DNA from: Wolfiporia cocos
Lineage: Eukaryota; Basidiomycota; Agaricomycetes; Polyporales; Phaeolaceae
NCBI GenBank assembly: GCA_029448655.1
Contig: JACCLO010000009.1
Coordinates: forward strand, 1,674,001 to 1,738,000
DNA length: 64,000 nt
Reading direction: 5' to 3'
Shown: in pieces, positions 20,920 through 53,666 of the stretch
Layout: every line of letters begins with the position of its first letter
Position numbering within the stretch: the stretch's first letter is position 1
Notes under the pieces: model-generated
Seen by the model: only the letters and a program-made list of their open reading frames with translations
What the model was told of the DNA's origin: nothing
Databases searched by the model: none
Translations under genes and position numbers: made by a program

Positions 20920-21672
20920 TCATTTCGAGACTGGAGACATCTTTCCCCATACGTTCTTGACCCAGCGTGGCACATGCACCACGCATACAGCGGCGCAGAG
21001 GATCACGAACACCGACATGCCTTGGTCCCATGCCATACCGAGCATTCCGACATTCGCAATAGCACCCATCGCGGTCCACCTGGGTGGCGTGAAGATGACG
21101 ACGCCGATGGCAAATACCATGAAGACTATCTGCGAAGCACGTGTAGGCGAGTTGCTGAAAAACTGGGCAGATATGGACAGAAAGCAGCAGCAAATGTTGG
21201 ACTGCCGAGGAGGTTGTATGAACTCATCTCCTACCTGTGCTCTGCAACTCACCAGATTCTGCGCGTCTCCCTTGGCGAAGCTGCCACCTTTCGTCTCCGC
21301 CTCCTCCACCGGCAGGTGGATAACAATGAACTCTTGGCCGCGATTCGATGCGTTCCTGGTCACGGCGGGCTGCGGCATATGCGCCATTCTGTAAGCTACT
21401 CCCGGCTCCGGGACTCTAGATAGCGGGCTTGTTGCCTCTGTTAACGCCTCGGTCGACCCAATCACACATTTGCTATGTATGCCTGGTTTCTCTGGCTGGC
21501 TCGTCTCCCATGCTTCGGCTTTCTCGGATGCCTTCGCATCGACCAACTGCTGTTCAGTCAGCTTGTTGAGATCCTGGATGCCCAACGTGCTACTCTTGGT
21601 CGACACATTTGTCAGAAGGTTAGGACCGTCTCCAAGGTCCTGCTCTTCGGTCTCCGTGTCCTTCGGCTGCAT
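20920..21672 (-). CDS. Small membrane protein of an unrecognised family, paralog 2
   Basis: Two exons in view: 21672-21253 and 21201-20920, giving 233 residues if translation starts at MQPKDTETEEQ. The 51-nt intron is a multiple of three without a stop, so the unspliced frame is also open; the identical intron position in the paralogs supports splicing. The N-terminal 125 residues are acidic and Ser/Thr-rich, followed by FIVIHLPVEEAE. The membrane block is IVFMVFAIGVVIFTPPRW, then ANVGMLGMAWDQG and VFVILCAAVCVVH, ending in a short basic tail. In paralog 3 more sequence lies upstream of the residues matching this start, so a further 5' exon is possible. Partner and function unknown; the layout suggests a small membrane protein with a cytosolic N-terminal tail. 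Confidence 0.65.
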   Translation of the reverse strand: MQPKDTETEEQDLGDGPNLLTNVSTKSSTLGIQDLNKLTEQQLVDAKASEKAEAWETSQPEKPGIHSKCVIGSTEALTEATSPLSRVPEPGVAYRMAHMPQPAVTRNASNRGQEFIVIHLPVEEAETKGGSFAKGDAQNLVSCRAQVGDEFIQPPRQSNICCCFLSISAQFFSNSPTRASQIVFMVFAIGVVIFTPPRWTAMGAIANVGMLGMAWDQGMSVFVILCAAVCVVHVPRWVKNVWGKMSPVSK

Positions 21673-43185: not shown

Positions 43186-44806
43186 TCATTGTGAGGCAAC
43201 ACTTTCCCCCTTATGCCCCTGATACAGCGAGACCCATGGACAACGCATACAGCAATGCAGAGGGCCACAAATACTACCACACCAGTCTCCTTGATCCCAT
43301 GCCATGCCAAACACCCCAACATTCACGATAACAGCCATCACAGTCCATCGAGGTGGTGTGAAGATAATGACGCCAACAGCAAACACGATGAAGACCACCT
43401 GCAGCGCGCGCGTGGGCGAGTTGTTCAAGGGTTGAGCAGTAAACGATAGGAAGCAGCAGCAGGTGTTGGACTGCCGACAAGGCTGGATGACTCCTCTGTA
43501 GAGTTTCAGTCAACTATCTTAATCTGCCAATTGCCCTTCACTTTAGAAATCACAGTTGCGAGCTAGGTTTGCACGCAGATTAATCTGCTAGCTGCGGCAG
43601 ATTAATCTACTGTGACAATAAAATGAGACCTCCAGGATTCGAACCAAGGACCTTAGCACAGACGAGAATAAGAGCATCGCAGTATTATTAGCCAACTGAG
43701 CCATAGTGACAACAGTTACCACTAGACCAATCAAAATATATATATATAACGCAAATTTTACACACAATTTCCGCAAATCATCAAGGCAACTAACTGCTAC
43801 AACAAGCATTAAAAAATCAATGATAGTGGTAGCTTGTTTTACCATGCCTGACCTGGAGCAATCCACAATGGGAAAGCTGAATGCACTGGAATCACAAGTC
43901 TTTAGAGGCAGATTCATTTGTATTTGTGTTATGGAAGATGTTAAACTGTGAAAATGAAGTTTACAAAATACTCTATATATTTCTTAAAAGTGTAAAGATT
44001 CTAGTTGCACTGTAGCTCAGTTGGCTAACATATGCTGCGATGCTGTTAGTCTCATCTGTGCTAAGGTCCTTGGTTCGAATCCTGGATGTACCATTTTATT
44101 GTCGCAGTAGATTAATCTGCCGCAGCTAGCAGATTAAGTTGCGTGCAAACCTAGCTCGCAACTGCGATTTCTTAAGCAAAGGGCAGTTGGCAGATTAAGA
44201 TAATTGACTGAAGTCCCTCCTCCTCTACCTGCCGGCTACATGCTCTGCAACTCACCAAGCTCTGGACAATGTCTACAGTGACATTGGCACACGCTGTCCC
44301 TGCAGCCTCTGTCGACATGTCGACGATAACAAATTCCCTGCCCCGCTTCAACGTGGCCTTGGAGACAGTAGCCAGTGGTATGCGCGCCTTCCTGATAGTT
44401 CCTCCCAGCGAGCTATGGATGGTGCATACGCACACTCAACTATCAGCTCTGTTAATCCTATTACACATTTTCTCTGCTTGTAGAGGTCCTCTGGCTGGCT
44501 TGCCTCAGACGAATTAGCTATTTCGGATAGCTCTAGCTCCCTATCGAGTAGCTGCTGTTCGACTAGCTTGTCGACGTTCTGGCTTCCCGATGTGGAACTC
44601 CCAATTGACTTGCATGCCAGCATGTGAGGACCATCACCGAGATCCTGTTCATCTTCTTCTGTGTTGCTAGGCCATGGTCTGTTGTACCTGTGGTCCCTAA
44701 CTGTGCTTGTGCTGCTGTCTGTGAGTACCTGTACTGCCACATCACCTGCCCCCATCTGTCCTCCCACACCTACACGATTGGCATCCTCCTCGGTTTGCAT
44801 GCTCAT
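43186..44806 (-). pseudogene. Membrane-protein family, paralog 3, frameshifted and transposon-split
   Basis: The N-terminal acidic part (44806 to about 44400) shares EEDEQDLGDGP and a KCVIG-T block with paralog 2. The frame then has to shift near 44400 to reach REFVIVDMSTEA. After the conserved phase-0 intron position (donor GTGAGTTGCAG at about 44257), the membrane block VVFIVFAVGVIIFTPPRW...GMAWDQG lies at 43300-43425. A second shift right after MAWDQG is needed to recover VFVALCIAVCVVH. The intron holds a 722-bp foldback element. With two frameshifts, the gene is very likely dead. Confidence 0.7.
43498..44219. mobile_element. Foldback MITE with paired tRNA-like arms, copy 1
   Basis: 722-bp element flanked by CTCCTCT at 43491-43497 and 44220-44226 (7-bp TSD). 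About 215 bp at each end are inverted repeats (inner word GATTAATCTGC). Each arm carries a tRNA-like unit with good Pol III boxes. On the minus strand the A box TGGCTCAGTTGG is 43703-43692 and the B box GGTTCGAATCC 43645-43635. On the plus strand the A box TAGCTCAGTTGG is 44013-44024 and the B box 44072-44082. Both are followed by TTTT within 20 nt and both read outward. The ~290-bp centre has a small open frame but no transposase. Confidence 0.85.
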
Positions 44807-46699: not shown

Positions 46700-46961
46700 T
46701 AGATTGCACCAAGCTTTCAATAAGCATCTTGTCACGGTTTTCTACCTGACGTTAAGGATAACGCTTTCCCCCGGGGTCGAACCCCGGTCCTCTTGGTATC
46801 TAGTCACATGATAGGGCCGTTATAGTGTAGTGGGTATCGGCACAGCCCAAGTAGTCACGTTAGGGACACATGACAGTAGCTTAGTCAGTGGCGTCGCGGC
46901 GCCTGCGCACGGCCCCTTACTTTAGGGTCGGTACTTACAAGTAGTACTTGCGCGAGACATG

Positions 46962-46968
46962 TATATAA
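46962..46968 (+). promoter_or_regulatory. TATA box of the LTR retrotransposon
   Basis: TATATAA in the 5' LTR, repeated at 47967-47973 in the 3' LTR. Transcription would begin 25-35 nt downstream, at or next to the self-primer sequence (46995-47007). A perfect 8-bp hairpin with loop CTTACT (46976-46997) lies in between. Confidence 0.7.
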
Positions 46969-47187
46969 GCTAGCGACTGAGGTCTTACTACCTCAGTCTT
47001 GTTATTACCGGCATTGGGGCGTGTCCCACAGTATCTCCCTCTGCGTGCTCTGCTGGCCTCGCCATGCTTCTTAGCCTCTGGCCTTACTGAGTAGCCCTCA
47101 TAGCCAGCGCCACTAGGACGACTCCGGTCCAAGACATTACGTCTTGTATCCTAGGGCATAAGCCGTACGTTGTGAATAACTGCGTCA

Positions 47188-47200
47188 TAATAACAAGACT
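47188..47200 (+). other. Self-complementary primer-binding site
   Basis: TAATAACAAGACT sits immediately after the 5' LTR and is the reverse complement of AGTCTTGTTATTA (46995-47007) in the LTR. It does not resemble the 3' end of a tRNA (no TGG start), which argues for self-priming. Confidence 0.8.
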
Positions 47201-48267
47201 ACTTTACCTCCCCCCCTTGGCATCGTTCTACGCCTTGGGGCCGAGGGTTTCCCACTCTATAGGTAGACAACGCGGCGGGGGCACCTCCTTGAACAGGAGG
47301 TCGGCATCAACTCGCCTGCCCCCCATATAAGCGTTGTCATGGCAACCACCCCCCCCTCTGCGCTCTTTCATGAGCGCGAGCCTTATCGCAAGGCATCAGG
47401 ACGGTGGTATGTTATACCTTACAGAGGAGTGGAAGACGGAAGCCCGCCCTCGCTGTTGAGCGATAGCAGGACATCAACTGGTACGTTCGCTACAACGTAC
47501 GTCCTGGGCGGCAGGACACCCCATGTCCCCTTGACCGGTGGGTATGTGAATCGCTTCGGCGTAACCCCACACTCAACACGGTCGAACCATTATGCGGACC
47601 TCACGTTCAGTCGCAGCAACCCCTCAGGTAGCGTCGCGCGGTTATGCTTTGTACAGCATCGGTAGAAACCGCAACCTAACGCGAATAGAGGGTACGATCC
47701 TTCATCGAGGCGATGAATGTAGAACAGGAGGTAATGTCACGGTTTTCTACCTGACGTTAAGGATAACGCTTTCCCCCGGGGTCGAACCCCGGTCCTCTTG
47801 GTATCTAGTCACATGATAGGGCCGTTATAGTGTAGTGGGTATCGGCACAGCCCAAGTAGTCACGTTAGGGACACATGACAGTAGCTTAGTCAGTGGCGTC
47901 GCGGCGCCTGCGCACGGCCCCTTACTTTAGGGTCGGTACTTACAAGTAGTACTTGCGCGAGACATGTATATAAGCTAGCGACTGAGGTCTTACTACCTCA
48001 GTCTTGTTATTACCGGCATTGGGGCGTGTCCCACAGTATCTCCCTCTGCGTGCTCTGCTGGCCTCGCCATGCTTCTTAGCCTCTGGCCTTACTGAGTAGC
48101 CCTCATAGCCAGCGCCACTAGGACGACTCCGGTCCAAGACATTACGTCTTGTATCCTAGGGCATAAGCCGTACGTTGTGAATAACTGCGTCACATCTATA
48201 GCTCATTGCAAGGCCTAGGGTGGCTTGTACATAGCATAGAAATCAAAATGAACAATTGTTTTACACT

Positions 48268-52168: not shown

Positions 52169-52883
52169 GTAGAGTTTCAGTCAATTATCTTAATCTGCCA
52201 ACTGCCCTTCGCTTAAGAAATTGCAGTTGCGAGCTAGGTTTGCATGCAGATTAATCTGCTAGCTGCAGCAGATTAATCTACTGTGACAATAAAGTGGTAC
52301 ATCCAGGATTCGAACCAAGGACCTTAGTGCAGATGAGAATAACAGCATCGCAGCATATGTTAGCCAACTGAGCTACAGTGCAACTAGTGTCTGCCCCATT
52401 TTAAGCGATATATAGAGTATTTTGTAAACTTCATTTTCGCAGTTTAACATCTTCCATAACACAAATACAAATGAATCTGCCTCTAAAGACCTGTGATTCC
52501 ACTGTATTCAGCTTTTCATGGTGAGCTGCTCCAGGTCAAGCATGGTAAATCAAGCTACCACTATCATTGATTTCTTTATGCTTGTTGGAGCAGTTAGTTG
52601 CCTTGATGATTTGCGAAAATTGTTTGTAAAATTTGCATTATTATATTTTGATTGGTCCAGGGTAACTGTTGCCACTATGGCTCAGCTGGCTAATTATGCT
52701 GTGGTGCTCTCATTCTGATCTGTGCTAAGGTCCTTGGTTTGAATCCGGGATGTACCATTTTATTGTCACAGTAGATTAATCTGCTGCAGCTAGCAGATTA
52801 ATCTGCATGCAAACCTAGCTTGCAACTGCAATTTCTTAAGCGAAGGGCAGTTGGCAGATTAAGATAATTGACTGAAGTCCCTC
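52169..52883. mobile_element. Foldback MITE with paired tRNA-like arms, copy 2
   Basis: 715-bp element flanked by ATGCACT at 52162-52168 and 52884-52890. Same architecture as copy 1 but in the opposite orientation. On the minus strand the A box TAGCTCAGTTGG is 52375-52364 and the B box GGTTCGAATCC 52316-52306. On the plus strand the A box TGGCTCAGCTGG is 52678-52689 and the B box GGTTTGAATCC 52736-52746. TTTT terminators follow at least the plus-strand unit. Confidence 0.85.
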
Positions 52884-53066: not shown

Positions 53067-53666
53067 TGACACAGACTCACGTCTGTGCGACCCCTGGGCT
53101 CAGGGGGGATCCTACACGCATGCACAAGCATGAAACACCACCACAACAGCGGTGACCCCGTTGGCCGTCAACCCTATGGTACGGGATTCCTTATAGGGAT
53201 CCACTGGGAGTACCAAGGGTACTCCTCAAGGGCAACGTGACGTGGCGGTATCTCACAGCGAGGCAGACAAGATAGGGCCCCGGGCCAGTAGATCACACAG
53301 CAGTAGCGAGTAAGGGGGATTAACCCATTGTTGAGAATCTAAGAGATGAGGTAGTAAGACCTCATCTTGCCGTATTATATACATGCATGTGTGTACTACT
53401 AGTCCTGCCATAACGTAGCCGGCCTGTGCGCCATATCTAAGGAGTCAGGTGACAAGTAATGCTACATGTAACTAATGTGACCATAAGTGACTGTACCTGA
53501 TGCGCGTGCTACCCTACAGCGCTAATCTACTGGGTCAGGTGAGCTATATGGAATGGAATGTGACGTGGAGAGGTGGCTGAGGCGTAGAGGAGCGTACACG
53601 CGCATAGCGGCACCCATACAACCTATAGCGAGGGATGCTAAATTAATAAAGGAATAATTTGTGACA
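53067..53666 (-). mobile_element. Solo LTR, 600 bp, TSD GAGGT
   Basis: GAGGT is duplicated at 53062-53066 and 53667-53671; the ends are TGACAC and GTGACA. Read on the minus strand, it shows TGTATATAA followed by GATGAGGT-CTTACT-ACCTCATC, matching the TATA box and hairpin of the complete element at 46730, so the two are related and lie in opposite orientation. The paralogous site near 39975 in TIR family A copy 1 shows one unduplicated target (ACCGC). Confidence 0.85.

Follow-up and report, generated by a model that had tools for sequence, protein, structure and literature searches.

A TRIM-like LTR element in Wolfiporia cocos with probable Tf1-type self-priming, probably copied by resident Ty3-type chromoviruses

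In a 64-kb window of the Wolfiporia cocos assembly (the window being the whole stretch of DNA that was analysed), we found a short LTR element that encodes no reverse transcriptase (RT) and whose primer binding site (PBS) is complementary to a stretch of its own LTR. We read it as a TRIM-like, non-autonomous element that uses self-priming of the Tf1 type and depends on the Ty3-type chromoviruses of its genome to be copied in trans, and we put the probability of this reading at roughly 0.87. The element occupies 1463 bp in total (46730-48192), and it is laid out, together with a related solo LTR in the same window, as follows:

46725..46729, no strand: left target site duplication, CATCT
46730..47187, + strand: 5′ LTR, 458 bp, TGTCAC...GCGTCA, identical to the 3′ LTR
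46962..46968, + strand: TATA box, TATATAA
46975..46998, + strand: U3/R hairpin with a 9-bp stem, its 3′ arm taking in the first 4 bases of the inferred RNA
46995..47006, + strand: inferred RNA 5′ end (+1 = A46995, placed from the TATA distance and the pyrimidine-A context) and 12-nt self-primer
47189..47200, + strand: PBS, complementary to 46995-47006
47207..47570, + strand: structured RNA domain, conserved, probably noncoding
47726..47734, + strand: polypurine tract (PPT) AGGAGG plus TAA, adjoining the 3′ LTR
47735..48192, + strand: 3′ LTR, 458 bp, 458/458 bases identical to the 5′ LTR
47980..48003, in the 3′ LTR at the second primer copy: complete hairpin, able to form in the RNA
48000..48011, + strand: second copy of the primer sequence, in the 3′ LTR
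48193..48197, no strand: right target site duplication, CATCT
53067..53666, - strand: solo LTR of a related family, TGTCAC...GTGTCA, read by eye and similar to families D and F

The identical LTRs, the CATCT duplication and the interior without reverse transcriptase had been described in an earlier note on this DNA, and all three descriptions are borne out, the interior amounting to 547 bp. An RT-less interior between LTRs, with a PBS and a PPT present, is the organization of a TRIM. At an assumed substitution rate of 1e-9 per site per year, the 0 differences in the 458-bp LTR pair give an upper age bound of about 3 million years, a bound that by this reckoning makes the element young and does not date it closely, and the identical LTRs are the one sign that it may have been active recently.

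Functionally, the feature that sets the element apart is the match between its PBS and its LTR. As the note had reported, the 13 nt at 47188-47200 are exactly complementary to 46995-47007 in the LTR, and the complement falls at about the 30 nt past the TATA box that it gave, with A46995 located 33 nt downstream of the first T of TATATAA. The chance expectation of an exact 13-mer match in the LTR is ~6.6e-6, and base shuffles of the LTR produced a 13-nt match in 0 of 20,000 cases and a 12-nt match in one; the complementarity is not a product of chance. Base 47188 is paired in the window copy only, its relatives having a 1-nt spacer followed by a PBS of at most 12 nt. A signature scan for a CA end, an 11-nt complement upstream and a TATA at the right distance had 47188 as its sole match in the 64-kb window and none in five shuffled windows, and the same scan without the TATA condition gave 36 matches in the window, mostly in other inverted repeats, and 8 in the five shuffled windows.

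Related copies are numerous in the genome. A whole-element search of the 64.4-Mb, 76-contig assembly returned at least 47 matches (40 of 173 candidates scored); among the matches listed are five full-length copies, the other four being 84-88% identical to the window copy, as well as a sixth family copy (C15) that a nested protein-coding element has interrupted, with solo or partial LTRs, interiors and fragments making up the remainder. The LTR pairs of the five copies other than the window copy are 99.1-100% identical. An interior-only search, the source of further families, returned at least 51 matches (40 of 50 candidates scored). Altogether, 38 copies entered the comparison of LTR/interior junctions, of which 34 are TRIM-like and four protein-coding, with the qualification that some of the interior-search copies, other than those extended downstream, could lie in larger elements. 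Downstream ends were fetched for eight families or subfamilies: seven have a clear LTR pair, 980-1278 bp from start to start, and the eighth (L050) has a partial one only. Judged by eye, 11 of 13 rows have 5-bp duplications without a mismatch (L002 matches at 4/5, L005 has none), and a purine tract plus TAA precedes TGTCAC in 12 of 13 TRIM-like copies (E_L025 has TGA) and in 7/7 of another set. The solo LTR listed above has ACCTC on both flanks, along with a TATA, a U3/R hairpin and a primer-like sequence of its own. In both L027 and L028, an LTR of family A is interrupted close to its TATA/hairpin interval by a family-F element, whose target duplication is the same at the two loci; the loci may be copies of one segment.

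Self-priming is supported by a pairing that persists across these families while its sequence changes. In 36 of the 38 copies, at least 11 of the 12 PBS bases are Watson-Crick paired with a stretch of the copy's own LTR, and in 34 of those 36 that stretch lies 33-34 nt past a TATATA box. The TATA box ATGTATATA stands 33-34 nt upstream of the primer in 35/38 rows (it is absent from C_L012, I_L041 and K_L047, the first two having no consensus TATA), and each of the 37 rows with a primer match has an A at +1, preceded by C or T. L038 (G_L038) pairs at 10/12 with a mismatch at +1, and K_L047, with no TATA box in the stretch examined, pairs at 7/12, which is about the level expected without a true site, given that the primer was picked as the best-pairing 12-mer upstream and scores are biased upward. 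With L047 left out, the 21 distinct primer/PBS pairs average 11.6/12 Watson-Crick against 6.7 for swapped pairs, and 0 of 20,000 permutations reached the observed pairing total; they hold 19 distinct primer sequences, 16 in TRIM-like copies and three more in protein-coding elements. When 18 of the 21 distinct sequences were aligned as a helix (E_L025, G_L038 and L030 left out), 98.1% of primer:PBS cells were paired against 34.7-44.9% in slid registers, 58 cells were changed on both sides against 3-13, and the covariation score was 0.813 against at most 0.108, with two-sided changes at 10 of the 12 positions. Two of the five helix measures are weaker against shuffles (both-side pair changes as high in 16/500, pair types in 9/500), and the families are related, so the primer:PBS changes are not independent events. 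Single changes are compensated inside families as well, between L001 and L003/L005 in family A and among three variants of family H.

Applied to 353 kb of fetched sequence, the signature scan gave 49 matches, of which 39 fall on LTR/interior junctions; because of overlaps between L001 and the window and between L007 and L023, these amount to 36 places. Five shuffled windows yielded no match. The ten false matches lie in other inverted repeats (L014, L018, L022), three of them through an edge effect of the scan script. The scan missed C_L012, I_L041, L038, L030 and L031 owing to a missing TATA, a mismatch, a distant primer or a G.U pair, and it detected by the signature alone an element absent from the prior list (L017), in which the interior domain is present by eye. 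Self-complementary priming is supported because the change between families is compensatory, and the Tf1-like reading offered in the earlier note gains by it. If plus-strand synthesis copies the primer into the new PBS, as we infer from the retroviral scheme, the covariation would be a footprint of actual use.

Two other accounts of the PBS were weighed. The PBS could serve a tRNA or a tRNA fragment, as in ordinary TRIMs and Helenus, with the LTR match a by-product. Yet the 19 primer sequences track the element's own LTR, and none of the PBSs at the 38 junctions begins with TGG, the usual complement of the tRNA CCA end. This account draws on several LTRs here that carry tRNA-like boxes, on TRIMs described with a tRNA PBS (PMC6934838, in the part accessible) and on fungal Helenus elements, most of whose PBSs match tRNA anticodon loops (PMC10886601, likewise in part). 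We regard it as very improbable and have rejected tRNA priming on the self-matching PBSs, in a comparison limited to the elements' own sequences; within the same bounds, a tRNA PBS in a partner, which the note had named as evidence that would tell against self-priming, was not seen in the four protein-coding elements. More improbable still is a match that plays no part in priming and is just a relic inverted repeat or a promoter palindrome, for although R and PBS lie in fast-changing DNA that gene conversion could homogenise, and the scan without the TATA condition found many other inverted repeats in the window, the distance of the pairing from the LTR end is constant across the matching families and the four protein-coding elements, and slid registers are only 35-45% paired.

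For the Tf1-type self-priming that we favor, candidate helpers are present in the genome. Profile searches yielded 1410 RNase H and 1318 integrase candidates (150 scored each), and the four protein-coding elements examined are a non-random four of ~1300-1400 first-look candidates. By Pfam scan, the frame of L029 contains a protease, RT, RNase H, integrase, a Tf2-1-like SH3 domain, a chromodomain and a dUTPase; the Ty3 chromovirus arrangement (RT, RNase H, then integrase, with a chromodomain) was found in L029, the one element scanned, the other three having been chosen by RNase H or integrase-core matches. The Tf2-1-like SH3 match in L029 is the one feature that might suggest a Tf1/sushi affinity of the helper. 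The nearest named record to the L029 polymerase by identity is from Trametes sanguinea (71%), and a cyclin of the host finds its best named matches in Trametes and further Agaricomycetes, which suggests an agaricomycete host, perhaps a polypore. The helper polyprotein (L029:971-6064) ends in the dUTPase, and the 685-aa and 333-aa frames that precede it are without a Pfam match. All four elements have the TGTCAC start, a purine tract plus T(A/G)A before the LTR, the same PBS offset and ATGTATATA, and all four pair at 11/12, one with an added G.U (the L030 primer was taken from the 3′ LTR, its 5′ LTR being interrupted). LTR start, PPT type and PBS layout are thus common to the four helpers and the TRIM-like copies, and the AUTO1 leader has 35 nt at 86% in common with family J just after the PBS. 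The autonomous partner for which the earlier note had proposed a search was accordingly found as a Ty3-type class with the TGTCAC start and the self-primed layout in 4/4 elements, and not as an individual: no protein-coding element with the window family's own LTR turned up among the 40 of 140 candidates scored. Most likely, the helper that the element would use belongs to this class, that of the Ty3-type chromoviruses, to judge from the shared layout.

From a mechanistic perspective, the cycle might run as follows. Pol II would start at A46995, and the first 12 nt of the RNA would pair with the PBS at 47189-47200. The RNase H of the helper would cut the RNA after about nucleotide 12, and with the freed 12-mer as primer the minus strand would be made through U5. 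The new DNA would then transfer to the 3′ R, the plus strand would be started at AGGAGG(TAA), and the product would integrate and duplicate 5 bp of target. Since the primer would be copied into the new PBS in each round, primer and PBS would stay matched.

Between the PBS and the PPT, the interior probably holds a conserved, structured, noncoding RNA of ~360 nt. In an alignment of 17 of the 34 TRIM-like copies, with at least one per family read, RNAalifold predicted 59 pairs, 30 of them with compensatory double changes. The helix cells are paired at 96.3% against 45.9-50.6% in slid registers, a figure favored by the structure having come from the same alignment; two-sided changes affect 102 cells, where slid registers have 7-13 and shuffles average 27, and further pair types are unremarkable (60/500 shuffles as high). 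G.U cells outnumber A.C cells by 59 to 13, an excess as for a sense RNA in a prediction that itself counts G.U as paired, and the fold of the window copy has a z of -4.15 (47188-47583).

We also considered a coding interior, and rejected it. An ATG frame of 108 codons (47339-47662) starts at interior base 152 of the window copy, and frames starting at interior base 150-155 run for 108, 125, 136, 73 and 80 codons in L001, L003, L004, C_L012 and H_L035 (within the stretch read), whereas the same frame stops after 17-43 codons in L002, L005, B_L011 and G_L032. Across the conserved region, 15 of 31 testable copies keep the frame in register, and 5 of these also keep it open (three of the 34 copies, the window copy included, are without an exact anchor, hence 31), and 1-base gaps are common. 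In four pairs from family A, which are not independent, 23-28 substitutions at third positions against 10-17 at the others lean towards coding, and this is the one contrary sign against a frame that is broken in most copies. Rfam gave no match in the 64-kb window at the gathering score and no match in 46700-48220 at E up to 10; over ten loci at E up to 1, its hits were confined to miRNA models that scored below threshold and lay outside the element. The interior RNA most likely serves in packaging, dimerisation or a priming complex. The packaging signal of Ty3-type elements is described, in the portion of PMC4558846 available, as conserved in secondary structure only and hence difficult to identify, and the interior RNA, backed by its covariation, is a candidate for packaging or priming RNA in such elements.

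The earlier note missed both this structured RNA and the hairpin at the U3/R boundary. Spanning about -20 to +5, the hairpin folds in all 37 copies with a primer match, its 3′ arm holding the first 1-6 primer bases, and the hairpin region of the window copy (46969-47000) has a z of -4.07. Although the primer is not the template for the U3 arm, that arm covaries with the start of the primer: 83% of cells are paired against 31-54% in slid registers, and 0/2000 permutations of 22 hairpins reach the observed pairing or energy. Double-change cells number 17, where slid registers have 3-12, and two measures separate poorly from shuffles (12/500 and 119/500 as high), so that on these alignments the covariation of the hairpin with the first primer bases looks less clean than that of the PBS.

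With the RNA starting at +1, only the 3′ LTR copy could form the hairpin, and this raises a general question of how a self-primed RNA avoids the second primer copy at its 3′ end. We posit, tentatively, that the hairpin could act as a lock that holds the 3′ primer copy and prevents futile or destructive pairing with the PBS, the 5′ copy being free for lack of the 5′ arm. The covariation of the U3 arm speaks for this possibility, as do the 11 G.U against 2 A.C pairs in the hairpin, as for sense RNA, and the predicted openness of +1..+4, which averages 0.67 without U3 and 0.09 with it, the lower value going with U3 in 24 of 25 distinct cases. However, the drop in openness follows partly from the presence of the hairpin itself, and the G.U count partly from a register chosen on the sense strand. 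Two of the four protein-coding elements do not fit, with no real difference in AUTO1 (0.31 vs 0.30) and the reverse in AUTO2 (0.11 vs 0.55); family H requires a bulge; 4-6 of 16 rows are unpaired at +2 to +5 in the register counted; and the modest double-change and shuffle results above weigh against the lock as well. It is doubtful, too, that the families form a superfamily of noncoding self-primed LTR elements defined by a ~360-nt RNA, by a three-way covariation of hairpin, primer and PBS and by a hairpin that hides a 3′ decoy primer.

The hairpin might instead have a promoter role, as a DNA-level element that sets the start site, and its position between the TATA region and the inferred start in 37/37 primer-match rows is consistent with this. 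We nonetheless think such a role unlikely, as the arm sequences vary with pairing largely kept and G.U exceeds A.C, albeit in small numbers.

Several further observations concern the LTRs and the rest of the window. In U3, a Pol III B-box (46773-46783, - strand) is followed about 40 nt on by a tRNA D-arm-like A-box (46823-46833, + strand); this B-box (-)/A-box (+) pair occurs in families A, B, C, G, H, H2 and I and is absent from D, E, F, K, M and AUTO1, with a one-mismatch B-box in I and J and no exact A-box in J. Aragorn tRNA calls on the LTRs were scattered, came at a very low cut-off and were disregarded. The stretches 43569-44148 and 52244-52808 have in common an inverted-repeat-rich sequence of the GCAGATTAATCTGC type, which is also found in L018 and is perhaps another repeat family. 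Two - strand frames, 20920-21672 and 44348-44806, are alike by eye over the stretch 'EQDLGDGP...' and are possibly fragments of a repeated coding element.

Among known systems, TRIMs of plants, ants, cestodes and bivalves resemble the window element in being short, LTR-bounded and RT-less, with a PBS, a PPT and presumed mobilization in trans. They are defined by a length under 1000 bp, repeats of 100-250 bp and a tRNA PBS in the available text of PMC6934838, and they use a tRNA or have no clear PBS according to that text and the accessible part of PMC10886601, whereas the element here exceeds that size at 1463 bp with 458-bp LTRs and has a self-complementary PBS. Helenus, the fungal TRIMs with a tRNA-like LTR (PMC10886601, same part), are likewise fungal and non-autonomous, with a 5-bp duplication and, as in some LTRs here, tRNA-like boxes; however, the Helenus LTR is tRNA-like in sequence and its PBS matches a tRNA, whereas here each strand carries one of the boxes and the PBS finds its match in the element itself. 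GalEa Copia elements, as far as the accessible text of PMC5445492 goes, are also fungal LTR elements with no tRNA PBS and a conserved hairpin, but that hairpin forms after the 5′ LTR and no U5 complement was found, in contrast to a hairpin at U3/R and a PBS that matches R. Retrozymes (PMC4918200, in part) are comparable as non-autonomous LTR elements with structured RNA; a retrozyme identity was rejected, with no match to the hammerhead or any other Rfam family in ten loci and in 46700-48220. A dUTPase-bearing Gypsy element of Postia placenta has in common with L029 its dUTPase domain, and the passages on it available from PMC2864245 draw no link to miniature elements.

Evolutionarily, the closest parallel lies in the Tf1/sushi group, where the RNA 5′ end is complementary to the PBS in Tf1/Tf2 and Tj1 of fission yeasts, in Tcn1 and in other members, self-priming being known for Tf1 and relatives and proposed for Tcn1 (PMC7175516 and PMC4600332, both in extract); a plant survey, also available in part, predicted self-priming for 12% of elements. 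Our literature search found no self-primed TRIM-like family, which is weak evidence of absence with most subscription papers beyond reach, and the U3/R hairpin went without mention in those portions of the Tf1-group literature that were accessible. The window element resembles the group in the complementarity between its inferred RNA 5′ end and a PBS next to the 5′ LTR and in the chromovirus-type helpers of its genome, although the Tf1 primer, in the accessible descriptions, is the first 11 nt of the RNA, whereas here 11-12 nt follow a 1-nt spacer. The 16 primer sequences of the TRIM-like copies and the three of the protein-coding elements amount to a natural series of compensatory mutations of the kind usually made at the bench. 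Finally, the known self-primed elements, so far as the sources available describe them, are full retrotransposons, whereas here the layout is carried by passengers that have no reverse transcriptase.
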